Assembly: GCA_028284955.1 (NCBI GenBank)
Contig: JANQQS010000210.1
Coordinates: forward strand, 1 to 34,939
Reading direction: 5' to 3'
Length of the DNA: 34,939 nucleotides
Origin: Myxococcota bacterium
GTDB lineage: Bacteria > Myxococcota_A > Polyangia > Polyangiales > Houyiibacteriaceae
Position numbers and translations under genes: made by a program. Of the stretch, positions 8,652-26,307 are shown in pieces. Below the pieces are notes generated by a model, which was given only the letters and a program-made list of their open reading frames with translations, did no database searches and was not told the origin of the DNA. How positions within the stretch are numbered: position 1 is the first letter of the stretch; each line of letters opens with the position of its first letter.

Positions 8652-9761
8652 ATGCGCACCCTGGAACGTGCTACTTCCCGCATTGTGCTCACCTCGAAAC
8701 CTGACCCCGACCCACTCTCTAGACCCGATGCGCCGGCCACCCACGATACACATCGAACGGTGCAAGAACAGCTCGTCTTCGTCATTTCGCCGCCGCGCGC
8801 GGGATCGACACTGCTTCAACGCATGCTTGGTAGTCACTCCGAAATCTTTACCCATCCCGAGCCACACCTGATCGCACCCCTCGCCCATCTCGGATACTAC
8901 GCAAACGTCGACAAAGCTCCGTTTGACCACATCAACTCAGCCGTCGCGCTGCAAGGTTTCGTAGACGCCCTTCCCCGCCGAGAGAACGACTATTTGGATG
9001 CGCTGCGGGCGTACGCCGACACACTATACGGACGCATGCTCACCACCACGTCGTGCTCATTTTTTCTCGACAAAACCCCCGCCAATGCCCTGGTACTGCC
9101 GTTCTTGCGTCGACTCTATCCGCGCGCGAAATACATCGTACTGACGCGGCACCCTCTGGCCGTGTTCAGCTCCTACGCGAACAGCTTTTTTGGAGGCGAG
9201 TGGGCCGAAGCGCACGCCTACAACCCCATTTTGGAGCGGTACGTCCCAGCCATGGCGGAGTTTCTGCGCGAACGGCCGGTGCCGCTGCTGCACATCACGT
9301 ACGAAGAACTAGTCGCGGCGCCGGCTCCCCAGCTCGAGCGAATCTTCGCATTCTTGGGCGTGGAACATGAACCCGAAGCCGTCGAGTACGGCCGCCACGA
9401 TTCGGGGCGCAGTCAAGGGCCGGGCGATCCGATCGCCGTGCACCGTCATCAGCGCCCGACCACCGAATCGATCGACAAATGGGCGCGCGAACTCGCCTCC
9501 GACCCCGCCAAAAAATCTCTCGCGGTAGAGATGCTCGACACGCTAAGCCCCGCTGACTTGCGAAGCTGGGGCTGGACCAAGGAAGAAGTGTTCGCCGGTC
9601 TCGAGGCGGCAGACGGCTCCAAACCGCCGAGCCCTCCCCGCAATCGATACACGTTTCAGCGGAGCTTGATGCGAGCGCTCAAGAAAGATATTCGCACCCG
9701 CCCTCACGGTAAAATTGTAAAGAAAATAAAGTACTACTGTGACGTGCTGCTTCGCGAATGA
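8652..9761 (+). CDS. PAPS-dependent sulfotransferase family protein
   Basis: This encodes a 369-residue cytoplasmic sulfotransferase-fold enzyme transferring sulfate from PAPS to a hydroxyl or amine acceptor. The 5'-phosphosulfate loop is SPPRAGST (residues 46-53). The 3'-phosphate site is in YIVLTRHPLAVFSSY (R166 and the Ser pair at 173-174). The start is uncertain: the first 38 residues are low complexity, and an in-frame GTG at 8760 would begin just before the PAPS loop. It is divergent from kamA, 48 bp between the starts. The acceptor is unknown. A basic C-terminal tail (KKDIRTRPHGKIVKKIK) is present. Confidence 0.87.
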   Translation: MRTLERATSRIVLTSKPDPDPLSRPDAPATHDTHRTVQEQLVFVISPPRAGSTLLQRMLGSHSEIFTHPEPHLIAPLAHLGYYANVDKAPFDHINSAVALQGFVDALPRRENDYLDALRAYADTLYGRMLTTTSCSFFLDKTPANALVLPFLRRLYPRAKYIVLTRHPLAVFSSYANSFFGGEWAEAHAYNPILERYVPAMAEFLRERPVPLLHITYEELVAAPAPQLERIFAFLGVEHEPEAVEYGRHDSGRSQGPGDPIAVHRHQRPTTESIDKWARELASDPAKKSLAVEMLDTLSPADLRSWGWTKEEVFAGLEAADGSKPPSPPRNRYTFQRSLMRALKKDIRTRPHGKIVKKIKYYCDVLLRE

Positions 9762-10597: not shown

Positions 10598-11902
10598 ATG
10601 AGCGTCAACTCGGTCCAACGAAAAGTGGTCATCAGCGGGCTGGGCATCGCAAGTCCCATCGGGGCAAACTTGTCTGAGGCATCAAGGTTGATACAATCAG
10701 ACGGGCATGGAATCCGCCGATGGTCGCCGTGGGAAGCAGTGGACGGGCTGAGGACACGGCTTGCGGCGGCGGTTACGGACATCGAGCTCCGCGGGTGGCC
10801 GAGGAAAAAATCGCGCAGCATGGGTCGGGTCGCGCGGCTCGCGGCGTGGGCCAGCGAACGCGCAATCGAGGACGCCCAGCTCGACCGCAGCCTCATGACA
10901 AGTGAGCGGCTGGGCTTAGCCTACGGCTCGACGCATGGTTCCTCGGCAGAAATGGAACGTTTCGCGTATGCGCTTTCGGATGGCCCATCCTTGCTTGGGA
11001 TCGGGCCCAACGAGTTTCTGAGATTTATGAGTCATACCTGCGCCATGAATCTCGCTTCGCTGTTCGAAATCCGAGGACGCGTGCTCACCACGTGTTCCGC
11101 GTGCGTGAGCGGGAGCCAGGCTATCGGGTTTGGCTACGAGGCAATTCGCAGCGGCACGCAGGACGTCATGCTTTGCGGAGGAGCGGACGAGCTCCATTTC
11201 ATGAACACCGGGATGTTCGACATTTTGCAGCTCACGTCGGTGGGCTACAACGCACACCCCAACCTCAGCCCCCGCCCGTTCGACCGCGACCGAGACGGGT
11301 TGGTCGTGGGAGAAGGCGCTGGCACCTTGGTCCTCGAAGAGCAGCGCCACGCCGAAGCTCGAGGCGCTGCATGGCACGCCGAAGTGGTCGGGTTCGGAAC
11401 GAGTTGCGATGTATCGAACCTGACCTCTCCCGCGCGCTCGGGCATGGAACGAGCGATGCGCGATGCACTCGATGACGCCGCGCTCGAGCCTTCCGATATC
11501 GACTACATCAACGCCCACGCCACCGGCACGGCCATGGGTGACATCGCTGAAAGCCACGCGACGTGGGCCGTCTTTGGCGACGAGGTGCCCACGAGCTCAA
11601 CCAAGGGGTTTACCGGCCACACGCTGGGCGCTTGTGGTCCCATCGAAGCCGCACTATGCATTGCGATGATTCGTGACGAGTTTCTCGCACCGAACCGCAA
11701 CCTCTCCCATCCCGATCCGGAATGCGCTCCGCTCCGCTACGTGCGTGAACGAACGCCCGCGATGGTGAACTACGCGATGTGCAACAACTTCGCGTTCGGT
11801 GGAATCAACACATCCTTGATTTTGAAACGGCCAGACCGGCCGCGGGAAGACCCCGCCGGCAGCGCCCCAACATCACCCGCGAAGGAACACCCATCGACAT
11901 GA
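10598..11902 (+). CDS. Beta-ketoacyl-ACP synthase, FabF-like (KS1)
   Basis: This encodes 434 residues from the ATG at 10598; an open frame continues upstream to 10418 but overlaps the preceding gene. It performs decarboxylative Claisen condensation of an acyl chain with malonyl-ACP. The catalytic set is complete: C169 in SACVS, H307 in NAHATGT and H341 in GFTGHTLG, with K336. The C-terminal gatekeeper block NNFAFGG is present. It is closely similar to the ketosynthase at 17175-18434 over its whole length (SPRPFDR, GGADELH, FxxRGR blocks), so the two are paralogues. Its stop overlaps the flavoprotein start by ATGA. It probably elongates the polyene chain. Confidence 0.92.
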   Translation: MSVNSVQRKVVISGLGIASPIGANLSEASRLIQSDGHGIRRWSPWEAVDGLRTRLAAAVTDIELRGWPRKKSRSMGRVARLAAWASERAIEDAQLDRSLMTSERLGLAYGSTHGSSAEMERFAYALSDGPSLLGIGPNEFLRFMSHTCAMNLASLFEIRGRVLTTCSACVSGSQAIGFGYEAIRSGTQDVMLCGGADELHFMNTGMFDILQLTSVGYNAHPNLSPRPFDRDRDGLVVGEGAGTLVLEEQRHAEARGAAWHAEVVGFGTSCDVSNLTSPARSGMERAMRDALDDAALEPSDIDYINAHATGTAMGDIAESHATWAVFGDEVPTSSTKGFTGHTLGACGPIEAALCIAMIRDEFLAPNRNLSHPDPECAPLRYVRERTPAMVNYAMCNNFAFGGINTSLILKRPDRPREDPAGSAPTSPAKEHPST

Positions 11903-13119
11903 AAGATGTGGCGATATTGGGCGGAGGGCCCACCGGAACAGCCACCGCTGCCCTCTTGGCCGACGCCGGACACTCCGTAGTACTCTACGAAAAAGACGCG
12001 TTCCCTCGTTTTCACATCGGAGAATCGCTACTTCCCTGTAGCGTTCCGTTGCTTCGGCGGCTGCGGGTCGATTTGTCGGCCCATGTGGTGAAGCTCGGCG
12101 CCGACTTTATCGACGAACGAGGCAGCGGTCAGCATGTTCGATACTTATTTGCCGACGCGCTCGAAGGCACCGGCGGCTACGCCTACCAGGTCGACCGCGC
12201 CCGCTTCGACAGCGATTTGCTCCGTCGCGCAGTCGAACTCGGCGCCGAGCGCAAGCCCCACCGCGTAGACGCAGTCGAGTTTTTCACCGATAGCGTCGCC
12301 GTGCATGCGGACGATAGCTCCGAGCGCGCCCGCTTTCTGGTGGACGCTTCTGGCCGATCGACATTTCTCGCCCGCCGCCACCGCTCGCTGGTCGCCCGCC
12401 ACGACCTGGGCATCGCGGCAGCGTTTTGCCACTACCGCGGAATCTCCGAACGCACCATGACGACGCTCGAGCACACGGGAAACATCCAAATTTTCATGCT
12501 CGACGAGGGCTGGGCATGGATGATTCCTCTCGGCCCTGAACCGGACGGCGAATCGAGCGAGAGGCACAATCGCGGACGAGTCAGCGTAGGCGTAGTCACC
12601 ACCAAACGCGGTTTCGCCTCGAAAGACCTGCTGAAATCGACGATCGCTCAGTCCCCGGCGCTCGAAGCCCTCCTCGCTGGCGCCCAGCCCGGGCCCACCC
12701 ATGTCACCGGCGACTACAGCTACGCCAACACCAAGCCGGTCGGGTCGCGATATGCCTGCGTCGGCGACGCTTATGGATTCATCGACCCAGTGTTTTCGTC
12801 CGGGGTCGCGCTCGGCCTCAGCGGCGCGTCGAAACTGGTCGAATTGCTTTCCCCCGCCCTCTCTTCCGGCTGCGAAGGAAACGCCTCGCTGCTGAAACCC
12901 TTCGATTCGTTCCTGCGGCACGCCCACGAAGTCTTCGGGGCCATGGTGCACAGCTTCTATCACACCCGCTTGGTGGACAACCTGTTCTTCTATTCCGCTC
13001 CGGACCCTGCGCTGCGTGCTGGTTTGATCAGCATTTTGGCAGGAGACGTCCATCGCAGCGACAACACCTTTCAAGAAATGATTCTTCGCTCCCGGCGGCG
13101 ACGCCGACTCGACGCATGA
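11899..13119 (+). CDS. FAD-dependent halogenase/monooxygenase-like flavoprotein (FAD1)
   Basis: This encodes a 406-residue flavoprotein of the tryptophan-halogenase / geranylgeranyl-reductase superfamily. The Rossmann motif GGGPTG is at residues 8-13, the FPRFHIGESLLP block at 35-46, WAWMIP at 205-210 and GDAYGFIDP at 289-297. WxWxIP is the motif associated with flavin-dependent halogenases. The conserved K65 (in KLGADF) may correspond to the catalytic Lys, which I cannot confirm without alignment. It overlaps the upstream ketosynthase and the downstream ketosynthase by ATGA, so expression is coupled. The role could be halogenation, hydroxylation or desaturation of the polyene. This copy is shorter and more divergent than the two at 18431-22060. 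Confidence 0.85.
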   Translation: MKDVAILGGGPTGTATAALLADAGHSVVLYEKDAFPRFHIGESLLPCSVPLLRRLRVDLSAHVVKLGADFIDERGSGQHVRYLFADALEGTGGYAYQVDRARFDSDLLRRAVELGAERKPHRVDAVEFFTDSVAVHADDSSERARFLVDASGRSTFLARRHRSLVARHDLGIAAAFCHYRGISERTMTTLEHTGNIQIFMLDEGWAWMIPLGPEPDGESSERHNRGRVSVGVVTTKRGFASKDLLKSTIAQSPALEALLAGAQPGPTHVTGDYSYANTKPVGSRYACVGDAYGFIDPVFSSGVALGLSGASKLVELLSPALSSGCEGNASLLKPFDSFLRHAHEVFGAMVHSFYHTRLVDNLFFYSAPDPALRAGLISILAGDVHRSDNTFQEMILRSRRRRRLDA

Positions 13120-14312
13120 TGCGTACCCCCTACCCCATCACGGCTCATTCCGCGGCGTGCGGCCTCGGGCGTTCGACCCAAGAGGTCTTCGACCATCTCC
13201 GCGCGGGCCAGCGCGGTCTCACTCCGTGCCCGCTGGACATTCCGTTTTCCGCGATGACGGGATCGGTCCCTGGCGACCTCGCGCGGGTACCCGATGCCTG
13301 GTCCGCCTACGATGCGCGGGTTACCCGCCTCGCCCACCTCGTGCACGAAGAAATCAAGGAGGCGGTGCAAGCCGCATGCGACCGCTGGGGGAGCTCGCGG
13401 GTGGGAGTCGCGCTCGGCACCAGCACGGGCGGAATCGGAGAAACCGAGCAGGCCTACGCGCGCTGGAAAACCCAAGACACAAAACCGCCCGCCCACCAAA
13501 CCGTCTATCGCTACGAAACCCAGCACACCTTTCATTCGCTCGCCGATTTCGTGGCCGGGGTTTCGGGAATCGATGGACCGCGATGTGTCGTGAGCACCGC
13601 GTGCTCGTCGAGCGCCAAAGTGTTCGCGGTAGCCCGGCGATGGATGGACGCGGAGGTCGCAGACGCAGTGTTGGTTGGCGGGGTGGACGCGCTCTGTCAC
13701 ACCACCGTGCGCGGATTCAAGACCTTGGGCGTGATGGCGGACCGGTATAGTCGACCCTTTGGCGAGGATCGTCCCGGGATGAACGTGGGCGAAGGCGCCG
13801 CGCTAGTCCTTCTCGAACGCCTTCCTGCGACCGATGGAGACACGCTGGCCTGGCTCTTGGGGGTCGGCGAAACAAGCGACGCCTACCGAATGTCGTCTCC
13901 CGAGCCTTCCGGGCGCGGCGCCGCTGCCGCCATGCGGGCCGCCCTCGATGATGCAGGACTGTCCGCCCCCCAGGTCGACTGCGTGCAAGCCCACGGAACG
14001 GGCACCCGCCACAATGATTCGGCGGAATCGATGGCCATTGAACACGTTTTTGGCACCGATACTCCAGTCGTATCCACCAAAAGCTACACCGCGCACACGC
14101 TGGGTGCGTGCGGCGCGCTCGAAGCGGTGCTTTCGATCCATTCGCTTCGCGAAGGCTGGATTCCCCCAAACCTCGGCCTTCCGCCGGTCGACCCGGAGAT
14201 TCACCTCGCATTGCCGACCCAACCGCTCCGCCAACGCTGTCGCTATGTGATGAGCAACGCGTTCGCGTTTGGCGGAAACAACTGTTGTTTGCTCCTTGGA
14301 GCAGATTCATGA
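13116..14312 (+). CDS. Beta-ketoacyl-ACP synthase (KS2, ApeO-like)
   Basis: This encodes a 398-residue ketosynthase. C163 (TACSSS), H293 (AHGTGT), H327 and K322 complete the triad. The second His block reads TAHTLGACG, with Ala in place of the usual Gly before His. It ends NAFAFGGNN. It is followed by an overlapping ATGA start of the chain-length factor, which matches the ApeO-ApeC type pairing where an active ketosynthase dimerises with an inactive partner. An ATGATG start overlaps the previous stop; the second ATG at 13119 is an alternative start. It is distinct from KS1 and KS3, which are more alike. Confidence 0.92.
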   Translation: MMRTPYPITAHSAACGLGRSTQEVFDHLRAGQRGLTPCPLDIPFSAMTGSVPGDLARVPDAWSAYDARVTRLAHLVHEEIKEAVQAACDRWGSSRVGVALGTSTGGIGETEQAYARWKTQDTKPPAHQTVYRYETQHTFHSLADFVAGVSGIDGPRCVVSTACSSSAKVFAVARRWMDAEVADAVLVGGVDALCHTTVRGFKTLGVMADRYSRPFGEDRPGMNVGEGAALVLLERLPATDGDTLAWLLGVGETSDAYRMSSPEPSGRGAAAAMRAALDDAGLSAPQVDCVQAHGTGTRHNDSAESMAIEHVFGTDTPVVSTKSYTAHTLGACGALEAVLSIHSLREGWIPPNLGLPPVDPEIHLALPTQPLRQRCRYVMSNAFAFGGNNCCLLLGADS

Positions 14313-15238
14313 GGCCTATTCGCGTGCTCGGACAAGGCCTGTGGTCGCCCCCCTACGCCACCGTCGAAGCTTGGCGAGACCATCTTGAACATCCCGTCGA
14401 CTCGCCGCACCACGGCAGCCGCCCGCCCTGCGCGATGGTCTCGTCTCGCCTCGGGCGCGCGACGAGCATGGTCACGCGGATCCTGGTGGAAGTCGCATCA
14501 CAGGCGACCGAGCGCGCCGGCATCCGCGCGGACGAAGTGTGCACGGTATTCGGATCGACCCACGGCGAGATCCACACCGCATTGGCCCAAATGGAGATGA
14601 TGCACGACGCGAACGGCATGCTCTCCCCCGCGCGATTCAAAAACAGCGTTCACAACACCGCAAACGGCATTTTTTCCATCGCCGCAGGCAACCGCGCGCG
14701 TTCCACCGCGCTCGCCGGGTCCAGCGGCGAACTCTTCGCGATGTGTCTCATGGAGGCCTGGACCCTCCTGCATACCCGCGAAGCAACCGCGGTAGTGCTC
14801 GCGATCGCAGAGGAGACACTTCCTCTCCCTCTTTCCGAACTCACCGCGGAATCGGAACTCGCTGACTCAGCGGCCGACGCATTCGGCGTCGGTCTATTGC
14901 TGGCCGCGGATACAGATGCTGGGCTGTCCGCTCATCCCCGCCTTCGAAATCTCCGCCGCGAACACGCTCACCTACCGAAGTCCAGCTTCGCGACCGAAAG
15001 CCGATGCAGCGGTTCAGTGGCACCCGCGCTGCACCTGTTGCGCGCGCTGGCGCCTGAATCGAGTTCCGCGCGGGAATCGATACCAAACTCGCTCGTCGTG
15101 TCACAACCGGTCGGGTCCAGCGGCCCCGCACGAGCCGACGAATCGCAGGCAAGGCAGTGGGTGGTCGACCTCGACCTGGTTGGATCGGTCAGAGCGGTTG
15201 GATCGCGGTCGGAACGGAACCCGGATCATAGAGGCTGA
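14309..15238 (+). CDS. Ketosynthase-like chain length factor (PF13723-type)
   Basis: This encodes a 309-residue inactive ketosynthase partner. The body shows KS features: a short N-terminal half, then the HGEIHTAL, NSVHNTANG and STALAGSSGE blocks. The position of the active-site Cys reads STALAGSSG, so no nucleophile is present, and the second half of the fold is shortened. In aryl polyene systems such a subunit forms a heterodimer with the ApeO ketosynthase and sets chain length. A TTGGAG ribosome-binding site and an ATGA overlap with KS2 support co-translation. The C-terminal 80 residues are low complexity (Ser, Arg, Ala). Confidence 0.85.
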   Translation: MRPIRVLGQGLWSPPYATVEAWRDHLEHPVDSPHHGSRPPCAMVSSRLGRATSMVTRILVEVASQATERAGIRADEVCTVFGSTHGEIHTALAQMEMMHDANGMLSPARFKNSVHNTANGIFSIAAGNRARSTALAGSSGELFAMCLMEAWTLLHTREATAVVLAIAEETLPLPLSELTAESELADSAADAFGVGLLLAADTDAGLSAHPRLRNLRREHAHLPKSSFATESRCSGSVAPALHLLRALAPESSSARESIPNSLVVSQPVGSSGPARADESQARQWVVDLDLVGSVRAVGSRSERNPDHRG

Positions 15239-15873
15239 CAAACGCGTACGTCCACCGACGTTCGATAACCGAACCAGCCGTTCGAGAACTCGATCCGCTT
15301 TCCCGGGGAGCGGCAAGGCGCGGCAACGTCCAAGCCGCCAGCGTAGTTCACCACGATGTGCCCAGGCGGTTGATTGTCGACACGCCGAAACGTTCTCCGA
15401 ACGAGTCGGCCATTCGCGAAACGCTCGGCCACTTCTTCACCGAACGCGATTCTCCGCTGCGTTCCTTCCCGCGAAGGGGAAACCGGCTGAAGCCAGATGC
15501 GATGGATATCGTAGAGAATGTAGCGGGGAGGAAACGGCATCTCAAAAGGCATCCAGCTCCGAAAACGCACCTGAGTGCCCCGTTGGGAAAGCAAGAACGC
15601 GCGGCCGCCGTGTGGCGCAAGCCCCACCAGGAGCACTTCCGCGCCCTTTTTTTGGAGCACCGCCCGAAACGAATGTCGCCCACGACGGTGCGCAATGGTC
15701 ACTCGATGTTCGATCATGAAATCGCTGCGAAACTCCCCCGGACTTCTGAGGCCCGAGTTTCCGAGCGGCGCCGGGTATCCAAGAGCGGCCGCGCGTGACG
15801 ACTGCCGAGACGTCGTCGAAGTGGACGATGCCGTGGGGGCGCCACACGCGAGGGCGAGCGCGCATATCGGCAC
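15226..15873 (-). CDS. DUF3261-like lipoprotein of the polyene cluster
   Basis: This encodes about 215 residues, with the DUF3261 body from about residue 45 (FMIEHRVTI, LLVGLAPHGG, PRYILYDIHRIWLQP, FSNGWFGY). DUF3261 proteins occur in aryl polyene clusters and are probably envelope lipoproteins. The only nearby in-frame start is a GTG at 15873, giving a very short LALAC leader. A more plausible basic n-region (QRRSSTRW) lies just upstream without a start codon. An in-frame GTG at 15960 would overlap the divergent dehydratase. The 5' end is therefore unresolved. The 3' end overlaps the convergent chain-length factor by 13 bp. Confidence 0.7.
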   Translation of the reverse strand: MPICALALACGAPTASSTSTTSRQSSRAAALGYPAPLGNSGLRSPGEFRSDFMIEHRVTIAHRRGRHSFRAVLQKKGAEVLLVGLAPHGGRAFLLSQRGTQVRFRSWMPFEMPFPPRYILYDIHRIWLQPVSPSREGTQRRIAFGEEVAERFANGRLVRRTFRRVDNQPPGHIVVNYAGGLDVAAPCRSPGKRIEFSNGWFGYRTSVDVRVCQPL

Positions 15874-15915
15874 CCATCGGGTTGATGATCGTCTTTGGCA
15901 AGCTACGGTTCCGGC

Positions 15916-16380
15916 GTGAGCGATCGTGATTTTATCCGTCTTTCTAGCCGCGGCTCGCACGATGATGGTGGGGGCCACGATAGCGAGCCACAGCATGACC
16001 GCAAGCACAGCGTCGTTGGCAAGCACGGTGGCGTAGGCAAGCACGGTGTCGGCGACGAAAACCGTGAAGTGCGCATCGCCATCGAAGTCCCGCAGCGCGT
16101 TCGTTACGTCGAAGGCCATTTCCCAGGCAATCCGATTCTGCCCGGCATCGCGCAACTCGTGCCGCTGGCAGAAGCGCTCGCGGAAGAGCAATGGCCTGAC
16201 CTCGGCGGAGTCGAAAGCGTGCGTCGTCTAAAGTTCATGCACGCGTTGCGACCAGGCGACCGACTCGATGTCGTGCTCTCGCGGCCTGCGAACTCACCGA
16301 ATCGAGTCATGTTTCGCATCGAACGGAGCGGTACTGAGTGTACGCGCGGCACGTTGCTCTTCCGTTCCGCCGGCAGTTAG
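15916..16380 (+). CDS. ApeI-like 3-hydroxyacyl-ACP dehydratase (hotdog fold)
   Basis: This encodes a 154-residue dehydratase from the GTG at 15916; an alternative TTG at 15895 would add 7 residues. The hotdog domain starts near residue 50. The motif GHFPGNPILPG (67-77) carries the catalytic H68, as in FabZ/ApeI. It would dehydrate 3-hydroxyacyl-ACP to the enoyl form during polyene building. Residues 13-49 are Gly/His/Lys-rich and include a repeated KHG-type hexapeptide, unusual for this family, whose members usually begin directly at the domain. Its end overlaps the convergent PlsC-like gene by 87 bp. Confidence 0.86.
   Translation: MSDRDFIRLSSRGSHDDGGGHDSEPQHDRKHSVVGKHGGVGKHGVGDENREVRIAIEVPQRVRYVEGHFPGNPILPGIAQLVPLAEALAEEQWPDLGGVESVRRLKFMHALRPGDRLDVVLSRPANSPNRVMFRIERSGTECTRGTLLFRSAGS
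16001..16054. repeat. Three 18-bp tandem repeats in the dehydratase N-terminus
   Basis: GCAAGCAC-type units begin at 16001, 16019 and 16037, with an 18-bp period. Copies two and three share the exact 13-mer GGCAAGCACGGTG (16018-16030 and 16036-16048); copy one is more diverged. They encode three His/Gly/Lys hexapeptides ahead of the hotdog domain. Copy number may vary between strains, which is inference. Confidence 0.8.
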
Positions 16381-17166
16381 CGCGCCCGGTTGTGTCAACT
16401 CGCCGCCCTGCGAAAGGCCTGCCTGAATCAGCTCGCGTACGTGGTCGCACAATCGCTTGGCGTCGGTTCCCAGCGCGTCCCGTTCCACCACCCCGAGGCA
16501 ACTGAACTCGTAGACCGCGCGCGCTTTGGGCACCCGCCAAAACGGCGCGCCCTTGGTAAGAAAAGGCCGGTCGATGCGAATGCCCACACAGACCAGCGGC
16601 ACGCTAGCGCGAATCGCCGCTTCGAACGCGCCGCGCCGGAACCGATGCAGCCCCCCTACTGGGGAACGCGTCCCTTCTGGGAAAATCACCAGCGGCCGCC
16701 CGCTCCGAAGCTGGGCGACCATGCGGTCGAGCGCAGCGGCACCGAACGCATCCTCCTCGGTCCGCTGAGGCCCCGGAATGTAACGCGTCGATCGCAGCAA
16801 GAGGCCCACGAACCACGACCGGTAGAGCGACGCTTTGACGAGGGATGTAAGCCCCGAAAAGAAGTGCAACAAGAATAGGACATCGATCAAGCTCGGATGA
16901 TTGGCCACGAGCACGTAGGGGCCACGCAGCGTGATCGGCGGCGGTCGAAAAGGTGCGTAGTCGATCAGCCCCATAAGCTTCAGATAGAAGAGGAAGAAAC
17001 CGTAGCCGCGGCCGAGAAACGCCGTGCACCGATCTCGGTGTCGGTCGAGCCCTCCCGGAAGCAAGAGGAGCATCAGGGGGAATACCAACGCCCCCAACAT
17101 CACGCTTCCGGCAAAAAACATCGCGAAGCCGAGCGCGGTAAGCGTGATGCGGACCCACCGAAACAT
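16294..17166 (-). CDS. PlsC-like 1-acylglycerol-3-phosphate acyltransferase
   Basis: This encodes a 290-residue membrane acyltransferase. N-terminal hydrophobic helices (about residues 6-37) precede the HX4D site NHPSLID (H90, D95) and the FPEGTR block (162-167). The family acylates lysophospholipids or similar hydroxyl acceptors at the inner membrane. In polyene clusters such enzymes can attach the polyene acyl chain to a glycerol-type anchor. It lies 8 bp downstream of KS3 on the same strand and probably shares its operon. The C-terminal tail overlaps the dehydratase gene on the opposite strand. Confidence 0.88.
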   Translation of the reverse strand: MFRWVRITLTALGFAMFFAGSVMLGALVFPLMLLLLPGGLDRHRDRCTAFLGRGYGFFLFYLKLMGLIDYAPFRPPPITLRGPYVLVANHPSLIDVLFLLHFFSGLTSLVKASLYRSWFVGLLLRSTRYIPGPQRTEEDAFGAAALDRMVAQLRSGRPLVIFPEGTRSPVGGLHRFRRGAFEAAIRASVPLVCVGIRIDRPFLTKGAPFWRVPKARAVYEFSCLGVVERDALGTDAKRLCDHVRELIQAGLSQGGELTQPGALTAGGTEEQRAARTLSTAPFDAKHDSIR

Positions 17167-17174
17167 AGCGGCCG

Positions 17175-18434
17175 CTACGGCGTCGAGCGCAGCACGAGCG
17201 ATGTATTGATGCCGCCAAACGCGAAGTTGTTGGTCATCGCAGTGCCGAGCGTGGCCTCCCGAGGCGTGCGGACATAATCCAGCGGAGCGCAGCGGGGGTC
17301 GATTTCTTCAAGGTTGTGACAAGGAGCCATGAACGAATGGCGCATCATACCAATGGTCCAAGCCGCTTCAATGGCTCCGCACGCACCAAGCGTATGCCCC
17401 ACGAAGCCTTTCTGCGACGAAACAGGCGTCCCGTCGCCAAATACGGAATGCGTGGCATGGCTCTCGGCGATATCCCCGAGTTCCGTGCCCGTGCCGTGAG
17501 CGCTCACGAAATCGATGGCGCCTGGGGCCACGCCCGCGTCGGTCAGCGCAAGCTCCATCACCCGCTGCATGCCCTTGCGGTCCGGCTGGGTGAGGTGGGC
17601 GCCGTCGCAGTTGCTCGCGTATCCAGCGACCTCGGCGAGTATTTGCGCGCCGCGCTGTTTCGCGTGCTGGTAGCTCTCGAGAACGAGCGCGCCGCCGCCC
17701 TCCCCGATCACCAACCCGTCGCGCGCGCGATCGAAGGGGCGCGGGCTTCGGTCGGGAGTTTCGTTGTAGCGCACCGACGTCGCCATCAGCAGGTCAAACG
17801 TCACCGCGCTGGTGTAGTGCAGCTCCTCGGCGCCGCCGCAGATCATGACGTCCTGCAATCCGTGCCGAATCAGCTCGTATCCCGCGCCGATGGCTTGCGA
17901 GCCGCTGGTGCAGGCGGTGCATGTCGACGCAATTCGGCCGCGCGTGCGAAAAAAATAGCCCACGTTCACCGCACACGTGTGCGTCATCAAGCGAAAGTAG
18001 CCGTTCGACTCAAGGCCTTTCATGTGGTGGTGAAGCGCGAGCGGAGTACTGAACGCCTCTGTTTCTTCCCCGGACCCCGAGGTTGACCCGAACGCCACTC
18101 CGGTCCGGCCCGATGTAAGCGTGTCTTCTTCGAGCCCCGCCTGGGCCACCGCCTGCTCGGCCGCGTTCACGGCCAAAAGCGCCACCCGCCCCATCGTGCG
18201 CCTTTTTTTTCGCGGATAGCGGCTGGCCAGGTCGGTCTCGGGAACTGGCGCGCCGATCCGGCACTGGAGATCGCGAATGTGGTCCCACTCCGGCATCTTC
18301 CGAATCCCCGATCGGCCTTCTCGTAGCCCCGCCAACGATTCCGCGACGGAAAGGCCAATCGGGCAGATGACGCCGATTCCCGTGACGACTACGCGCTGGC
18401 TCGGCGCTCGGTCCCCCGTCGCAGTCGCGCTCAT
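17175..18434 (-). CDS. Beta-ketoacyl-ACP synthase, FabF-like (KS3)
   Basis: This encodes 419 residues from the ATG at 18434, which overlaps the upstream flavoprotein stop by ATGA; the longer open frame to 18467 is therefore not needed. The catalytic residues are complete: C175 (CTACTS), H313 (SAHGTGT), K342 and H347 (GFVGHTLG). It ends NNFAFGG. It is a close paralogue of KS1 but on the opposite strand. As with KS1, it is translationally coupled to a halogenase-like flavoprotein. It is probably an extender ketosynthase (ApeR-like) of the polyene pathway. Confidence 0.92.
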   Translation of the reverse strand: MSATATGDRAPSQRVVVTGIGVICPIGLSVAESLAGLREGRSGIRKMPEWDHIRDLQCRIGAPVPETDLASRYPRKKRRTMGRVALLAVNAAEQAVAQAGLEEDTLTSGRTGVAFGSTSGSGEETEAFSTPLALHHHMKGLESNGYFRLMTHTCAVNVGYFFRTRGRIASTCTACTSGSQAIGAGYELIRHGLQDVMICGGAEELHYTSAVTFDLLMATSVRYNETPDRSPRPFDRARDGLVIGEGGGALVLESYQHAKQRGAQILAEVAGYASNCDGAHLTQPDRKGMQRVMELALTDAGVAPGAIDFVSAHGTGTELGDIAESHATHSVFGDGTPVSSQKGFVGHTLGACGAIEAAWTIGMMRHSFMAPCHNLEEIDPRCAPLDYVRTPREATLGTAMTNNFAFGGINTSLVLRSTP

Positions 18435-20035
18435 AGTGCGCTCCCCATCGTGTCCAGCTGCGACCACGCGTCAACCGACGAAGCGGCGCGCTCGGCCAGC
18501 AGGTCGCCATCGAGCGCTTCCCGCACCATCTGCCGGGTTTGCGCGAAAATCGCTTCGCTGCGCGCATTGACGTCTCGACGGCTGCGCGGAACACCGACCT
18601 CTTCCATCACGCCAAATGCCTCGCGTCCCTCGAGCTCGTAGTGCTCCGTGTTTTGACGATAAAACGTGCCGCGACGGTGCATTTCCTCGGCTGCGGTCAG
18701 AAAAAGAGTGCGGAACTCCTTCATCGTGGCCATCACCCAAGAGCGACGGCGCGACAGCGTTCGAAGCCAGCGGGCATCGAAATGGAGATCTCGCGCATAT
18801 GCGTCGAACCACAAGTTGTAGTAGCAGGCGGTGTCAAAAAACGCCTTGGCGCGAAATAGCTCGTAGCTTCCGAAGACCGGGTAGAGCCCCTCGTAGAGGG
18901 TCATCGTCACATCCAATCGAAAATGCATATGGTCGTCGTAGAGCCGGGCCGTCTCCTCAATATTCTCGCCGCGTAAATCCTTTTCGATCAGATCGCACAC
19001 CAGGTCGTTTTCCACCGAAATGAAATCAGAGCCGGGGCTGTAGAATGGGTCCGCGAACGCCGCCGCATCGCCCACGCAGCCCCACCGCTCGGCGCTGAAA
19101 AACTGCCGGGTGCGAAACGCGAGCTGACTGAACGCGCCGAAATCCACCATCTCCGCGGGACGCATGAGGTCGCCGACCGCGCGGTGCTCTCCCAAAAAGC
19201 TCTGAAACCCCTCCTTTTCATGCATGGAACGGTTCCACCCCTTCGCCTCCTGCACGACGCCGACCGACGTGAGACCATCGCGCAGAGGGATGAACCAAAT
19301 CCAATAGCCGGGGTAGCAAAAATGGTTCGTGGAGAGTACTCGGCTCGTGTGCCGGGCGCGCGCGTGCCACTCCGGCGCGTCAATCTGGTCCATGTCGACG
19401 ACGCCTCGAAAGCGCCCCCAGGCCGCACCAACCCGATGATCCCGTTCTGGTCGCTTCAGATCGCGCAGCTTCGCCACCACGCCTTCGCGTCCCGTGGCGT
19501 CGACCACCCACCGCGCGCGCCATGAATCGCCAGCCGTGCGGTCGGCGTGCGCGGCGCCCGTTGCATCCACGACGCGAAAACTATGCCCGCCGTCGGCCGA
19601 AAGCTCGAGATCTGTCACCCGAACGCCCTCGACAACCTGCACGCCGTCAGCTCGATTCAGGCGGATCAAATCTGCTTCAAGGCGCGCGCGGTCGAGTTGA
19701 AAACTCGGATACGGCGGCAGCGCATGCACCCCGATTTCGCTCAGGTTGGGGAGCGTCGCGTCTTTGCGCTCGGTATCAAAGAAAAATCGCAGGCCGTTCT
19801 TGGGAAGATGTTCTTTGTAGATATACGTCGAGAGACCGAGTCGGCGAACCAAGTAGTTGGTCGCAATCTCGACCGTCGATTCACCGACTTTGAACGTACG
19901 CTCGGTCGTTCGCTCGAATACCGCGACCGACGCATCGGGAATCTGACGTCGAATCTGGCGCGCCAAGAGATTGCCGGCGAGGCCGCCCCCCAAAATCGCA
20001 ACGTCCACCGCGTTCATATGTTTTGACCCCGCCAT
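18431..20035 (-). CDS. FAD-dependent halogenase-like flavoprotein (FAD2)
   Basis: This encodes a 534-residue flavoprotein. GGGLAG is at residues 16-21, VGESTVE at 50-56, LPKNGLRFFF at 77-86, GYWIWFIPL at 243-251 and VGDAAAFADPFYSPGSDF at 321-338. The halogenase-associated WxWxIP motif is intact. K79 of the LPKNG block is a candidate for the catalytic Lys. The C-terminal domain (about residues 345-534) is mostly helical and larger than in FAD1. The start could be ATG 20035 or ATG 20017; the latter begins directly before the Rossmann fold. It is divergent from its homologue FAD3, and its stop overlaps KS3. Substrate and reaction are not known. Confidence 0.87.
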   Translation of the reverse strand: MAGSKHMNAVDVAILGGGLAGNLLARQIRRQIPDASVAVFERTTERTFKVGESTVEIATNYLVRRLGLSTYIYKEHLPKNGLRFFFDTERKDATLPNLSEIGVHALPPYPSFQLDRARLEADLIRLNRADGVQVVEGVRVTDLELSADGGHSFRVVDATGAAHADRTAGDSWRARWVVDATGREGVVAKLRDLKRPERDHRVGAAWGRFRGVVDMDQIDAPEWHARARHTSRVLSTNHFCYPGYWIWFIPLRDGLTSVGVVQEAKGWNRSMHEKEGFQSFLGEHRAVGDLMRPAEMVDFGAFSQLAFRTRQFFSAERWGCVGDAAAFADPFYSPGSDFISVENDLVCDLIEKDLRGENIEETARLYDDHMHFRLDVTMTLYEGLYPVFGSYELFRAKAFFDTACYYNLWFDAYARDLHFDARWLRTLSRRRSWVMATMKEFRTLFLTAAEEMHRRGTFYRQNTEHYELEGREAFGVMEEVGVPRSRRDVNARSEAIFAQTRQMVREALDGDLLAERAASSVDAWSQLDTMGSAL

Positions 20036-20161
20036 TCGAATCCGACACCATCCTAAAACGGTGCTATACGGAGAGTCTTAGCGCTCTCCCTTGCGTCAGT
20101 CCATAGCAGGTTCCATGGAGAGTACCGGCCAAACGGAAGCCGAAAGCCGACCGACAGGGAA
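20036..20161. promoter_or_regulatory. Divergent promoter region between two homologous flavoproteins
   Basis: This 126-bp gap separates the FAD2 and FAD3 starts, so both promoters must lie here or inside the genes. A GGAGAG...CTCTCC dyad (20070-20075 and 20084-20089) is a possible operator. TATACG (20064-20069) is a possible -10 box, but no convincing -35 was found. The exact elements are not assignable by eye. Confidence 0.45.
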
Positions 20162-22060
20162 ATGACACAAACCGACTTCGACGTAGTGATATGCGGCGGA
20201 GGGCTGGCCGGGCTCAGCCTCGCGCTCCAACTTCGCCAGGAACAGCCCGTGAACGGGGTCGACCCGATCCTCCGGGTGGGCGTGGTCGAGCGGACGGCTC
20301 GGCCGCTGCCGCCGGCTTGCCACAAGGTCGGCGAATCGACGGTGGAAATGGGAGCCTACTATTTCGACCGAATGCTCGGGCTCGGGGAAAGCCTGCGCGA
20401 ACGACATCTTCCGAAGAACGGTCTTCGCTTCTTTTGCGGACCGGGGACCGAACCTCTCGCGCGGCGATCGGAAATCGGCCCGGTCGAGTTTCCGATCGTT
20501 CCGTCCTATCAGATCGACCGGGGGCGATTCGAGACCGAGCTACGAGAACGCTGCGAAGACGCGGGCGTGACTCTGCTCGAAGGCTGGACCGTCGACACGA
20601 TCGATCTCTCAGACTGCGATGATACCCCCCATCGAGTGCACCTGCGTCATCTGTGCGCAACCGGGCAATCGAGCGCGACCGCGCCACCCGACTCGTCTTC
20701 CTCGGCCACATGGCACACGCGATGGGTCGTGGACGCTTCCGGTCGGCGGCGTCTCCTTCACAAGCAGCTCGATCTCCGTCGGCCAAGCGCCCAAACCGCG
20801 AGCGCGGCATGGTTTCGCGTCGCGGAGCGAGTTCGCGTCGACGAACTGGTTCCCCAGGACGAAAAACCGTGGCACTCGCGTGACATCGACGGCACGCGGT
20901 GGCTGTCTACGGTGCACTTGATGGGTCCAGGCTACTGGGTGTGGCTGATTCCGCTGGCCGACGACTTCACGAGCATCGGAATCGTCGCCGACGCCGCGCA
21001 CCACGACTTTCGCGAATTCAACACCGAAGCGCGGGCGCGCCGCTGGCTCGCCACGCACGAGCCTGCGCTCGCCGAACGCATGGACGCCGTAGCCACCGAA
21101 GACTTTCGCGTCATGCACGACTTCAGCTACCTCACCGAGCGAGCGTTCTCGAAGCATCGGTGGGCCTGCGTAGGCGAGGCAGCTCTGTTTGCCGACCCTC
21201 TCTATAGCCCCGGCAGCGATTTTTTGGGTCTCAGCAACTCCATCGCCGCGCGGTTGATTCTCGACGACATGCGAGGCGCACTGGATGAAGAAATCGTCAA
21301 TCAGCTGAATGATGTACTCGTTCGAAGCGGCGAAAACTTCGTCGAAGTCGTTCGCGAAGCCGGCGTGACATTTCCCCACGGCTCGATCTTCGGAGCGAAA
21401 ACATGGTGGGATTTCTTCCACTACTGGACCTTCCTCGCGCCGTACTTCATTCAAGGCATCTATCGGCTCGACGCGGCTGAGCATCGACGTTTTCTCGAAC
21501 TCGGGTCTACCTACCGGGCGCTCAACTCGAGCGCTCAGCGGGTGCTCACGGCGTGGGCGACACTCAAGTCGTCTTCCCCTCCGCGTGGCTCCGAGACGCC
21601 TCACGCACAGCCAGCCGGGCGACCGTTTATCCCGCTGCCGATGTTCCCCTCCATCCTCGCCGAGCGTCACGTCGAACTGGCCAAGCCCGCCACGCCGGAT
21701 GAGGTCTATGCGAAGATGGTCGACGACGTGGAGCTGTCTCATCAGTTCATCCAGGAGCTCGTCGTTCACGCCCTGAGCGATCTTCCTCCCGAGCACGCCG
21801 CACAATTCGGACAACAAAGCGGTCTCGCAGCAGGTGATGTACGCATCGATCGCGATCGTTTCGTCGTCGAATCCCAATCAAGACGCACGCGGCTTGCGTC
21901 GACGCCCCGGATCGGACGAGACCTCGAGCGAGCCGTCGGACGAACGCGCAGCGGAGAGCTCCCACTGCTCGACCGTCTCGACCGAGCCTTGGACACGAGC
22001 CAGCGAGCCACCCCAACCATCGAACAACCCCAATCCTCTGGAACCCTCACCCACCTGTAA
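20162..22060 (+). CDS. FAD-dependent halogenase-like flavoprotein with long C-terminus (FAD3)
   Basis: This encodes a 632-residue homologue of FAD2. GGGLAG is at 12-17, KVGESTVE at 55-62, LPKNGLRFF at 83-91, GYWVWLIPL at 257-265 and VGEAALFADPLYSPGSDF at 337-354. Gly-Asp of the FAD motif reads Gly-Glu here (VGEAA instead of VGDAA). A Ser/Ala/Pro-rich insertion lies around 165-185. The C-terminal 130 residues, beyond the homologous core, are poorly conserved and rich in Arg, Ser and Asp. An AGGGA ribosome-binding site precedes the ATG. It is followed 46 bp later by an ACP gene, so it probably acts on ACP-bound chains. The reaction (halogenation or hydroxylation) is not decided. Confidence 0.85.
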   Translation: MTQTDFDVVICGGGLAGLSLALQLRQEQPVNGVDPILRVGVVERTARPLPPACHKVGESTVEMGAYYFDRMLGLGESLRERHLPKNGLRFFCGPGTEPLARRSEIGPVEFPIVPSYQIDRGRFETELRERCEDAGVTLLEGWTVDTIDLSDCDDTPHRVHLRHLCATGQSSATAPPDSSSSATWHTRWVVDASGRRRLLHKQLDLRRPSAQTASAAWFRVAERVRVDELVPQDEKPWHSRDIDGTRWLSTVHLMGPGYWVWLIPLADDFTSIGIVADAAHHDFREFNTEARARRWLATHEPALAERMDAVATEDFRVMHDFSYLTERAFSKHRWACVGEAALFADPLYSPGSDFLGLSNSIAARLILDDMRGALDEEIVNQLNDVLVRSGENFVEVVREAGVTFPHGSIFGAKTWWDFFHYWTFLAPYFIQGIYRLDAAEHRRFLELGSTYRALNSSAQRVLTAWATLKSSSPPRGSETPHAQPAGRPFIPLPMFPSILAERHVELAKPATPDEVYAKMVDDVELSHQFIQELVVHALSDLPPEHAAQFGQQSGLAAGDVRIDRDRFVVESQSRRTRLASTPRIGRDLERAVGRTRSGELPLLDRLDRALDTSQRATPTIEQPQSSGTLTHL

Positions 22061-22106: not shown

Positions 22107-22406
22107 ATGACTCGAGAAGAAATTTACTCCGAGGTCGTTCAAATTCTCGCCGATTCGTTCGAACTCGACGCAGCCAGCATCAAACTTGATTCAACGCTTT
22201 ACGAAGATTTGGACCTCGACAGCATCGATGCAGTCGACATCTTCGTTCAGCTCCGTGATTTGACGGGACGACGACCCGACCCCGAAGTCGCCAAGCAAAT
22301 CCGGACGGTCGATGAGCTGGTCACCTTCGTGGAAAACGAAATCGCGGCCGCTGAACGCGGCGACCCCGAACCACAACCCCAGATGCCACCTGGCGCGGGC
22401 ACGTGA
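22107..22406 (+). CDS. Acyl carrier protein (ACP1)
   Basis: This encodes a 99-residue ACP. Its phosphopantetheine attachment Ser is S39 in DLDSIDAVD, with a standard four-helix pattern over residues 3-83. The last 15 residues are a Pro-rich tail, longer than in FabD-system ACPs. It carries growing acyl chains as a thioester. It overlaps the following dehydratase by GTGA and follows FAD3, so these three act as a unit. A second ACP at 30806-31075 suggests a two-carrier system as in aryl polyene clusters. Confidence 0.93.
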   Translation: MTREEIYSEVVQILADSFELDAASIKLDSTLYEDLDLDSIDAVDIFVQLRDLTGRRPDPEVAKQIRTVDELVTFVENEIAAAERGDPEPQPQMPPGAGT

Positions 22407-22831
22407 GCGATACACACCGCGATCTGCTTGAACGCATCCCGCATCGCCCTCCAATGAGATTTTTGGACGACGTCGTGACGGTGACAAGCGAACGCATCCG
22501 GACGCGCGCGGAGCTGCGCCAAGGGCACATTCTGGAGTCCGGAAACGGCATCTCCGCGCTCATCGCGATCGAAATCTTTGCACAATCCGCGGCCGCGCTC
22601 TTAGCCCACCGAGCCCGCTCAGTCGGCCAAGCTCAGGTGTCGGGGGCCCTGCTCGGTTCGCGTCGCGTCGATTTCCTAGTGCCGCGATTTCGCATCGGCG
22701 ACGTACTCGAGGCGGAAGTCTCAGAAACCTGGGGCGCGGGCGAGCTCGCGCAGTTTGACGGCACACTGTTTCGCGAACGCGAGGTGGTCGCGCAGGGCTC
22801 GATCAATGTCGTCAGTGGTTCCATTCCTTGA
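22403..22831 (+). CDS. ApeP-like 3-hydroxyacyl-ACP dehydratase
   Basis: This encodes a 142-residue hotdog-fold dehydratase starting with GTG, overlapping the ACP stop (GTGA). Its features are PHRPPMRFLDDV near the start, the EIFAQSAAALLAHR helix and GALLGSRRVDF, which match the ApeP-type dehydratases rather than FabZ. With ApeI it would form the dehydration partner in polyene formation. It ends just 7 bp before the convergent MMPL gene. Confidence 0.88.
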   Translation: MSDTHRDLLERIPHRPPMRFLDDVVTVTSERIRTRAELRQGHILESGNGISALIAIEIFAQSAAALLAHRARSVGQAQVSGALLGSRRVDFLVPRFRIGDVLEAEVSETWGAGELAQFDGTLFREREVVAQGSINVVSGSIP

Positions 22832-22837
22832 GCGCGC

Positions 22838-25309
22838 CTATCCCGGACCCATGAGCGATTCGGACGCTGGCCGCAACAGCACCCACGCGGTCGGGGCGAA
22901 AAGAAGGCTCAGCACCACACCCAGGGTGGCGGTCATGCCGATCGCGTGAAGGCCGGGGTTGTCGCTGAGCGAAAGCACTCCGAACGAGGCGACCGTCGAA
23001 AGGCAAGCAAAGAGTAGCCCCACGCATGTCACGGACGCACCACTGGAATCGCGCCGCGCTTCGACAAGAAATACGCCGTAGTCGACGCCCATGCTGAGCA
23101 CGAGGAGCAGCGCCACGACATGCAACAAGCTCACTCGCTGCCCGAGTAGCGTCAGCAATCCAATGGTGCAGCCAGCCGCGAGTACGGCCGGCAAAAACGC
23201 GGCCAGCGCTGCTGGCAAACTTCGATAGCGCACGACGACGAGCAGCAACACGAGCACCAACCCGCCGAGCACCATCTCCACCGTACGAACGCGAAACCCA
23301 CGATAGGCGGACTGCAAGAACTTCGTTTGCTCGAACAGTCGAACCCCCTTCAGGGCATTGACAGCGCGCGAGAGGCGAGCTGGATCGCGCACCCCCTGCA
23401 CCATCGAGAGCACCATTGTATCCCGCGAATCAAGTACTTCTTTCGAATCAGGCTTCTTTTTGCCCCACGATGGTTGCGCGCCAGCTGGCTTGGTCGCTGC
23501 GGGAACTTGAACCACGAACGGTTCGACCAGACGCTCGAGCGCGGTGTGTCGAATGTCTCGAAGGTGAACCGCATCGGTCGGTTCGCGAAGCGCGCGCTCA
23601 AACTCGACGAACGCTTCAGGTCGAAACCCTTCCGCAGCAAGCGCACGGGAGGAGCGCTGCCACGCGTCTGACGGAATCGCGCGGAGAATCTGCTGCTGGT
23701 GTCGCGCCGACGGAACCAAATCGTGGAGGGAGCGAAATCCTTTCAGCACGCCTTGCGCTTTGGCGTCTCGAAGCACGCGATGGACCGAGTCGTTGCGCTC
23801 AAGCACTTCTTGGACGGTGCGTCCGCGGGCCACCACCAGACGACCTGCGTCATCGCCGGAAACCCGCGCCCGGACTCGGGCTTCTTCGTCTAAGAGCGTC
23901 TGGTCAATGCCCTGAAACGAGCGCAGGTCATCCTCCCAGCGCACCTGCCATACGCCCCACCCCGACAGCGCCACCGCGAACGCCAAGATTCCCCAGCCCA
24001 CCCACCGCTGACGTCCGAGTGACACCAGGAAATGCCCGCACTGACGCTCGAGGGTCCGATGAAAGGATGTTGGCGCACGCGAAGGAATAAAGTTCGGCAG
24101 AACGAGCGTGGTGACCAAGAATGCCACCGCCACGCCGACCGATGTGTAGAGCGACATCTCGGCGATCCCGGGAAACGATGTCCACGAGAGACCGCTAAGG
24201 CCGACCAGGGTTGTCGCCGCACCGAGCGCAAGGCCTGGCGCGATGCGACGGAGCGTGCGGTAGGGCCCGGCTTGTGCCCCATCGGTTGATCGACGATCGA
24301 GCGCCCGAGGGTCAAGGACGTGGTGGTTGAGCAAGTGGGCGACGTAGTCGATCGCCACGCCGATCAGCGTCGCACCAAACGCGAACGTAAGCCCGTGAAT
24401 CGACCCAAACCACCATCCCGTCACCGCGGTCGCGACGAGCATCCCGGAGGCGATCGGAAGAGCTGCGATAAACACGAAGCGCCACGACCGGAACACAAGC
24501 AAAATGAGCACCAGGGTCGCGCACACCCCCACCGTCGACACGCGTGCGATATCGGATCGAATGCTCGACTCGGATGCGATGGCGAGGCGATGAATCCCTG
24601 CCTGCTCGAGCCGAAGCGCACCGCCGTGGCTTTTGTTGACGCGCACGAACGCCTCATGAATGCCGGCCTGCACCTGGCGGCCAGCTTGAGTATTAAACGC
24701 CGACGCCCGGGTACCCAGAAACAAAACCGCATACTGGTCGCGACTGCCGGTCACGAACTGCCCCAAGCGATGACGAATCGACTCGGGCTGCGCCTCGCGC
24801 AAGCGGTCGAGGTGGCGCGAAAAGAACATCCAAGGGTCCGCCTGAGCCAGTTCGCGCACAAACGCCCCGGCTGGACCCGAGAGCTCTCGACGCAATGAAC
24901 GCGCCCGCGCTCTTAGTGACCCAGGTTCAAAACTCTCCGCGACATCGCCTGGTGACGGCCCCGCGAAAAGCAGCCTCTTGTCGAAATACGTCTGATAGAA
25001 CGACCGCTCGAACTCCGGCGTCGGGCCGCGATGAACCCACGCCACGCCGCGAACGTTCTTCAGCGCATCGCCGAGCGCGCGTCCCGCAGCCACCGCCTTC
25101 GCGCTCGAAGGCGCCTCAACCGTCAACGAAACCGTCTGGTTCGCAGCCGACCGGGCGACATCCCGCGCGATCCGCGCCAGCTCATGGTCACCAGCCTTCG
25201 GCAAGAAGTGGGTGATCTCCGAATGAACTACGAGCCCCGGCAGCGCGAGCGCAGATGCGACCACGATACCGAGCAGCACCAACGCAGAAGCCATTCTCCG
25301 AACACGCAT
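22838..25309 (-). CDS. MMPL-type RND exporter
   Basis: This encodes an 823-residue inner membrane exporter with the duplicated RND arrangement: one N-terminal helix (8-28), a large periplasmic loop, a bundle of helices, then the repeat. Conserved Asp residues lie in GVAIDYVAHL (first half) and GVDYGVFL (second half), fitting proton-driven transport. Polyene clusters use such MMPL proteins with a LolA-like partner to move the product to the outer membrane. The partner gene here lies upstream on the same strand, beyond the broken barrel gene. The ribosome-binding site before ATG 25309 is weak. An in-frame internal ATG five codons later is an alternative. Confidence 0.9.
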   Translation of the reverse strand: MRVRRMASALVLLGIVVASALALPGLVVHSEITHFLPKAGDHELARIARDVARSAANQTVSLTVEAPSSAKAVAAGRALGDALKNVRGVAWVHRGPTPEFERSFYQTYFDKRLLFAGPSPGDVAESFEPGSLRARARSLRRELSGPAGAFVRELAQADPWMFFSRHLDRLREAQPESIRHRLGQFVTGSRDQYAVLFLGTRASAFNTQAGRQVQAGIHEAFVRVNKSHGGALRLEQAGIHRLAIASESSIRSDIARVSTVGVCATLVLILLVFRSWRFVFIAALPIASGMLVATAVTGWWFGSIHGLTFAFGATLIGVAIDYVAHLLNHHVLDPRALDRRSTDGAQAGPYRTLRRIAPGLALGAATTLVGLSGLSWTSFPGIAEMSLYTSVGVAVAFLVTTLVLPNFIPSRAPTSFHRTLERQCGHFLVSLGRQRWVGWGILAFAVALSGWGVWQVRWEDDLRSFQGIDQTLLDEEARVRARVSGDDAGRLVVARGRTVQEVLERNDSVHRVLRDAKAQGVLKGFRSLHDLVPSARHQQQILRAIPSDAWQRSSRALAAEGFRPEAFVEFERALREPTDAVHLRDIRHTALERLVEPFVVQVPAATKPAGAQPSWGKKKPDSKEVLDSRDTMVLSMVQGVRDPARLSRAVNALKGVRLFEQTKFLQSAYRGFRVRTVEMVLGGLVLVLLLVVVRYRSLPAALAAFLPAVLAAGCTIGLLTLLGQRVSLLHVVALLLVLSMGVDYGVFLVEARRDSSGASVTCVGLLFACLSTVASFGVLSLSDNPGLHAIGMTATLGVVLSLLFAPTAWVLLRPASESLMGPG

Positions 25310-25387: not shown

Positions 25388-25672
25388 TTACAACGCAACC
25401 CCGGCACCGAGCTGCACCACGAACTGATTGAAATTGCGAACTGATTGAAGTCCCATTTGCCCTCAATCGTCATGTCGTCCGCGGTCGCGGAAGCGTTCAC
25501 TTCATGGCGCATCCAGCCGAGCTCCACCAGCAAACCCACGCGCTCGCCGATGAACAACTGCGCGCCGCCGAGCACCCCAATATTCCACCCGAAGTCGGTT
25601 TGATTGCCGTTTCCCGAGCCGTTGTCTCGGGTAAATGCTAGCGAACCCGAAATAATTCGCGCTTTTCACGAT
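25388..25672 (-). pseudogene. Remnant of an outer-membrane beta-barrel gene
   Basis: The minus strand encodes a stretch with alternating hydrophobic barrel strands (VLGGAQLFIGERVGLLVEL, then WMRHEVNAS). It opens after a stop near 25672, with no start codon and no signal peptide, so it is 5' truncated. Near its end the frame is shifted by a 17-bp tandem duplication (see repeat at 25420-25449). Removing one copy restores NQFVVQLGAGVAL followed by TAA at 25388, a perfect barrel C-terminus. The un-shifted frame instead runs on for 30 unrelated residues. The intact ancestor was probably a porin-like protein. It sits between LolA and MMPL, where no barrel gene is needed. Confidence 0.72.
25420..25449. 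repeat. 17-bp tandem duplication in the barrel pseudogene
   Basis: CGAACTGATTGAA occurs at 25420-25432 and again at 25437-25449, a 17-bp period on the plus strand. 17 is not a multiple of three, so the duplication shifts the reading frame of the barrel remnant. Confidence 0.85.
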
Positions 25673-26297: not shown

Positions 26298-26307
26298 ACA
26301 GAATCTG

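Follow-up and report, generated by a model that had tools for sequence, protein, structure and literature searches.

Few bacterial pigments are as widespread as the aryl polyenes. The ape clusters of E. coli CFT073, Xenorhabdus and Acinetobacter encode ApeO, ApeC, ApeR, acyl carrier protein (ACP), dehydratase (DH) and ketoreductase (KR) (PMC8253772; PMC8358021), along with LolA, MMPL and DUF3261 proteins and acyltransferases; the half-size ApeC type has been described previously (PMC3691225; PMC8358021). Xanthomonadins carry between zero and two bromine atoms, and a halogenase gene is present in the Xanthomonas clusters, whereas the Lysobacter enzymogenes cluster has neither a halogenase gene nor a bromine signal (PMC3691225). 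In Xanthomonas, the cluster order is ACP, XanB1, XanB2 and AMP-ligase, with a separate halogenase, and XanB1 is labelled merely as a 'putative reductase/halogenase' (PMC3838355). The literature that we searched does not state which enzyme installs which halogen in xanthomonadins, and our search for halogenated aryl polyenes in myxobacteria returned merely general remarks on arylpolyene clusters.

We herein analyse a 34,939-nt stretch of DNA from a Myxococcota bacterium of the class Polyangia (hereafter, the window), in which two ketosynthases (KS) each overlap the gene of a flavoprotein (FAD). Judging from its genes, the cluster holding both pairs is probably a biosynthetic gene cluster for a yellow, xanthomonadin-like aryl-polyene pigment that is predicted to be halogenated. 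It is a real and conserved aryl-polyene cluster of a xanthomonadin-like type, and its variant feature is an unusual number of halogenase-like enzymes.

Gene content and the closest described clusters

The genes of the window that belong, or may belong, to the cluster are as follows.

8652..9761, + strand: sulfotransferase, possible cluster member (PF13469)
10598..11902, + strand: KS1, ApeR-type ketosynthase (PRK09116, 466.7 bits, cut-off 470; tree; catalytic residues)
11899..13119, + strand: FAD1, flavin-dependent halogenase-like, XanB1 type, short form (PF04820; signature residues; fold; Xanthomonas counterpart)
13116..14312, + strand: KS2, ApeO-type ketosynthase (PRK09185, 416 bits, cut-off 407)
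14309..15238, + strand: KS4, half-size ApeC-type chain-length factor (PF13723; conserved KS2-KS4 pair)
15226..16191, - strand: DUF3261 protein, ApeN-like (PF11659)
16294..17166, - strand: lysophospholipid acyltransferase-like protein (LPLAT), ApeD-like (PF01553)
17175..18434, - strand: KS3, ApeR-type ketosynthase (PRK09116, 537.6 bits, cut-off 470; PDB match 4EWG)
18431..20035 (start at 20035 or 20017), - strand: FAD2, flavin-dependent halogenase-like (PF04820)
20162..22060, + strand: FAD3, flavin-dependent halogenase-like, kin of the xanthomonadin halogenase (PF04820)
22107..22406, + strand: acyl carrier protein (PRK05350, 94.7 bits, cut-off 65)
22403..22831, + strand: ApeP-like dehydratase (PF22817, 31.2 bits, cut-off 27)
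22838..25309, - strand: MMPL/RND exporter, ApeM-like (PF03176)
25638..26438, - strand: LolA-like chaperone, ApeL-like (PF19574, PF03548)
26712..27905, - strand: LpxL-like acyltransferase (PF03279)
27719..28324, - strand: membrane protein, conserved in related clusters (weak VC0807-family match)
28311..29039, - strand: ketoreductase, ApeQ-like (PF13561; FabG model, 332.6 bits, cut-off 273)
29950..31002, - strand: family 2 glycosyltransferase, GT2 (PF00535)

This gene set agrees with the one listed for the ape cluster of E. coli (PMC8253772), which supports the aryl-polyene reading: an ApeO-type ketosynthase adjoins its half-size ApeC partner with an ATGA overlap, ApeR-type ketosynthases are present (KS3 above the PRK09116 cut-off; KS1 just below it, and assigned by the tree and its catalytic residues), and the ACP, dehydratase, ketoreductase, LolA, MMPL and DUF3261 proteins and acyltransferases are all found. 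The E. coli list has no halogenase and comprises one ApeR, an ApeH ligase, two ACPs and two DHs, whereas the window holds two ApeR-type ketosynthases and three halogenase-like proteins, with one ACP and one DH seen in the cluster. The flexirubin clusters of Bacteroidota share with the window the aryl-polyene core and the LolA and KR types. We rejected membership of the flexirubin group, since the flexirubin models match below their cut-offs (LolA2_flexi, 50 of 125 bits; FlxB, 298 of 340 bits) and an aromatic ammonia lyase (PF00221) was not found in the window's genome, a 96.6% complete draft.

The resemblance to the xanthomonadin (pig) cluster extends to the flavoproteins. Xanthomonas loci have KS2, KS4 and GT2 in common with the window; there, a FAD3-family gene comes directly after KS2-KS4-GT2, while the opposite end holds a FAD1-family gene that adjoins an ACP gene, in the position of XanB1; next to it lie chorismatase-like and AMP-ligase-like proteins, named from sequence and gene order with no family model. 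This arrangement fits the gene order, the halogenase and XanB1 of the published cluster (PMC3838355). As far as sequence can tell, FAD1 is the counterpart of XanB1, and in our tree the FAD3 clade is sister to the clade of xanthomonadin halogenases. The window thus combines the KS2-KS4 pair, a FAD3-family halogenase and a XanB1-type protein, and it also has the KR, MMPL, LolA, LpxL-like and LPLAT genes of the xanthomonadin cluster (PMC3838355; PMC3691225). It differs in possessing a third halogenase-like protein (FAD2) and two ApeR-type ketosynthases, in its gene order, in the adjoining sulfotransferase, and in lying in a genome with no match to XanB2. Given the last point, we describe the cluster as xanthomonadin-like rather than as a xanthomonadin cluster. 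A starter supply of the XanB2 type was thus not found in this 96.6% complete draft genome; among the 33 genomes of the family, a single weak XanB2 match was seen. For an AMP-ligase, the window's genome gave weak matches only, and a Pfam scan of the regions flanking three relatives' clusters (L140, L150 and L192) revealed no relevant starter genes.

Three halogenase-like flavoproteins

All three flavoproteins score above the cut-off for Trp_halogenase (PF04820). The motifs GxGxxG, WxWxIP and FxxPxxSxG, which are features of flavin-dependent halogenases (PMC10377541; PMC10696468), are found in FAD1, FAD2 and FAD3 of the window. Across the 34 FAD1, 35 FAD2 and 24 FAD3 proteins, GxGxxG, WxWxI, FxxPxxSxG and the catalytic Lys, which aligns with that of Mpy16 and CmlS, are invariant, and two of the 34 FAD1 rows have another residue for the proline of WxWxIP. 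Moreover, the best PDB matches of the flavoproteins, by sequence as well as by fold, are halogenases. The AlphaFold2 models (pLDDT 88 for FAD1 and 87 for FAD2) match ChlB4, Mpy16, Bmp2 and PltA in the case of FAD1, and larger halogenases, including CtcP, PltM and CmlS, in the case of FAD2. FAD1 is alike to PltA, Mpy16, Bmp2 and ChlB4 in fold, length and signature residues, although its identity to them in the structural matches is only 25-28%. FAD1 is a short form, and the C-termini of FAD2 and FAD3 are longer. Carrier-bound substrates are the targets of variant B enzymes, CndH among them, and the marker of variant A is a C-terminal lid (PMC10377541); carried over to the window, this scheme may place FAD1 with the former and FAD2 and FAD3 with the latter. 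The likeness of FAD1 to carrier-protein-dependent halogenases fits ACP-bound substrates.

We also weighed the possibility that the cluster makes an aryl polyene, with at least one of the three flavoproteins being a hydroxylase, an epoxidase or another flavin oxidoreductase. The product would then be oxygenated instead of halogenated, or partly halogenated. FAD1 gives nearly the same score with the monooxygenase QhpG (115 bits) as with the halogenase CmlS (109 bits), both below the cut-off; the close matches in fold include 3NIX, which bears a flavoprotein/dehydrogenase annotation; and the cautious label of XanB1 in Xanthomonas (PMC3838355) leaves room for such an activity. Against this, the halogenase signature residues are retained in all three families, WxWxIP has been proposed to hinder hydroxylation (PMC10696468), and the kin of FAD3 lie in clusters for brominated xanthomonadins (PMC3691225). 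We therefore regard this alternative as rather unlikely, and prefer to read all three as probable halogenases.

This halogenated aryl-polyene reading draws on the ape gene set, the invariant motifs, the PDB matches to halogenases, the Xanthomonas locus, the sister position of the FAD3 clade and the conserved linkages described below, as well as on the occurrence of bromine in xanthomonadins and its absence, together with the halogenase gene, in Lysobacter (PMC3691225). It is weakened by the lack of detected starter genes (XanB2, ammonia lyase) and the weak AMP-ligase matches, by the relationship to QhpG, by the annotation of 3NIX, and by the fact that no flavin reductase domain protein was found in the cluster; one is encoded elsewhere in the window's genome. 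The same genome carries a further full-length gene of the Trp_halogenase family (L001, 1501-2931 on contig C184; 448.9 bits).

Linkage and origin of the ketosynthase-flavoprotein pairs

The sequence-only reading had noted that ATGA overlaps join the two pairs in opposite orientations, and the coordinates bear this out: KS1 (10598-11902, +) and FAD1 (11899-13119, +) have ATGA in common at 11899, and FAD2 (20035 or 20017 to 18431, -) and KS3 (18434-17175, -) at 18434. ATGA junctions also occur between FAD1 and KS2 (13116) and between KS2 and KS4 (14309), so they are a property of the operon and not specific to these pairs. At related loci, which served as background, 71 of 132 close same-strand junctions allow a 4-nt overlap, the values being 9 of 14 for KS1 to FAD1, 4 of 9 for FAD2 to KS3 and 16 of 17 for KS2 to KS4. 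Hence, we rejected the overlap as a mark of special coupling, given that it is equally frequent at other junctions; it would reflect ordinary translational coupling between genes that are used together.

KS1 and KS3 are indeed close paralogues, as had been suggested. They share 53% identity over 404 aa, both retain the catalytic Cys, two His and Lys, and their clades, each covering several families of the class, are sisters within the ApeR group, with moderate support (92/88 for KS1 and 86/94 for KS3). The nearest solved structures to KS3 are 4EWG, its best PDB match, and 7F27, which are PpApeR and AbApeR, respectively (PMC8358021). The window's KS1 is unique in its clade in having Phe in place of AbApeR Tyr135 and Asn in place of AbApeR His268, and it sits on a long branch; its activity may have drifted.

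The kinship of KS1 and KS3, each adjoining a flavoprotein gene, speaks for the proposal that a two-gene module was duplicated and inverted inside the cluster. The flavoproteins do not share this history. In the trees FAD1 stands apart from FAD2 plus FAD3, and forcing FAD1 and FAD2 into one clade lowers the log-likelihood by 107 (p-AU 8e-55); the nearest paralogue of FAD2 is FAD3 (37% identity, as against about 26% to FAD1). A parallel duplication of KS1/KS3 and FAD1/FAD2 was thereby rejected. Moreover, inversion preserves the internal order of a module, and here the two pairs run in opposite order, KS ahead of FAD on the plus strand and FAD ahead of KS on the minus strand. In the deeper KS3 lineages, an ACP gene and often a DH gene lie between FAD2 and KS3, which suggests that their direct contact, found in the window's family and the nearest lineages, is derived. 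Thus, duplication of a KS-FAD module is excluded and, barring a secondary replacement of FAD1 by an unrelated halogenase together with a rearrangement of gene order, already refuted; we give it next to no probability. The ketosynthase half of the proposal stood and the flavoprotein half fell, and the case demonstrates that overlapping gene pairs can recur without any module having been duplicated.

The pairing itself is not peculiar to the window: other genera and families have conserved both linkages. An ApeR-type ketosynthase lies immediately upstream of FAD1 at 17 testable loci, usually in the order KS2-KS4-(DH)-(KR)-KS1-FAD1, and the KS2-KS4 pair is likewise conserved. Most of the closest relatives have FAD2 and FAD3 side by side in divergent orientation. 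The two pairs themselves lie on separate contigs or far apart in the majority of relatives; the L207 locus, like the window, holds FAD1 with its ketosynthase plus FAD2. At several loci FAD1 occurs without KS1, mostly following KR, and in two genomes that carry FAD1 (G172 and G153) a family-wide search did not find an ApeR-type ketosynthase, giving only FabF- and KS2-like matches.

A shared pathway for the ketosynthases and flavoproteins is well supported. The earlier suggestion that they act together on ACP-bound intermediates is supported in part: the conserved linkage, the common membership of one type II polyketide synthase (PKS) cluster and the resemblance of FAD1 to carrier-protein-dependent halogenases speak for it, while the genomes in which FAD1 occurs without a detected ApeR-type ketosynthase, and the restriction of direct FAD2-KS3 contact to a derived part of the KS3 tree, speak against it. 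A stronger version, in which each ketosynthase forms a specific physical complex with its flavoprotein neighbour on the same ACP-bound intermediate, could appeal to the 17 loci with adjacent KS1 and FAD1, many with a 4-nt overlap, to the same-strand order of FAD2 before KS3 in their lineage, and to the Nitrospirales and Planctomycetota, where FAD2 directly precedes KS2 or follows two KS-like genes, respectively. Yet FAD1 is found without a detected ApeR-type ketosynthase, overlaps are equally common at other junctions, the partner of FAD2 varies between phyla, and core cluster genes are neighbours in any case. Such pair-specific complexes are not supported, and we consider them improbable.

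The scan of named genomes yielded records for Sandaracinus, Nannocystis, Sorangium, Nitrospirales, Planctomycetota, Xanthomonas, Lysobacter and Stenotrophomonas. Nannocystis has the gene order FAD2-ACP-DH-KS3. In Nitrospirales (L199, 1107-3895; L205, 8204-12748; L216, 9980-12748), a FAD2-family gene lies directly before KS2-KS4, which takes the place of KS3, and L205 has two such genes in tandem. In Planctomycetota and an uncultured bacterium (L211, L214 and L217, about 7500-11540), two KS-like genes, 27-37% identical to KS1/KS3, precede a FAD2-family gene. Three tandem FAD3-family halogenase-like genes each were observed in Kribbella antibiotica (L230, 7164-12414) and in a Ktedonobacteraceae MAG (L237, 6270-11671).

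Proposed pathway

We postulate that both pairs are parts of a single aryl-polyene type II PKS cluster with three flavin-dependent halogenase-like enzymes, and infer the halogenation, the substrates and the order of steps from homology. The ACP-bound chain would be elongated by KS2 (ApeO) and KS4 (ApeC), with early or additional condensations by an ApeR-type ketosynthase (KS1 and/or KS3), and KR and DH would make the conjugated double bonds. FAD1 most likely halogenates an ACP-tethered intermediate. For the paralogues FAD2 and FAD3, the most likely target of halogenation is the aryl head or the polyene, in tethered or free form. The acyltransferases and the LolA, MMPL and DUF3261 proteins would serve lipid anchoring and export. 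On balance, we find it likely that the pathway leads to a xanthomonadin-like halogenated aryl polyene, with one ApeR and one halogenase extra. A bolder possibility is that unrelated halogenase families, separately joined to two sister ApeR-type ketosynthases, form two units that halogenate one chain at different stages, giving a multiply halogenated aryl polyene with an unusual starter; this we hold to be improbable.

The two flavoproteins of Xanthomonas may correspond to the two bromination sites of xanthomonadins. The Polyangia clusters comprise three halogenase families that can be separated, since natural relatives possess only FAD1 and FAD3, so that each halogen site could be traced to its gene in turn.

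In three relatives (L137, L138 and L142), the KS2 group likewise has a homologue of the sulfotransferase (8652-9761) close by; given this conserved neighbour, the cluster product might be sulfated. Next to the sulfotransferase, the window has an open reading frame on the minus strand (7278-8930), named by eye as lysine 2,3-aminomutase-like, which also occurs close to the clusters of L137 and L138. The longest frames of 7278-8930 (-) and of the sulfotransferase (+) overlap, hence both gene starts need correction.
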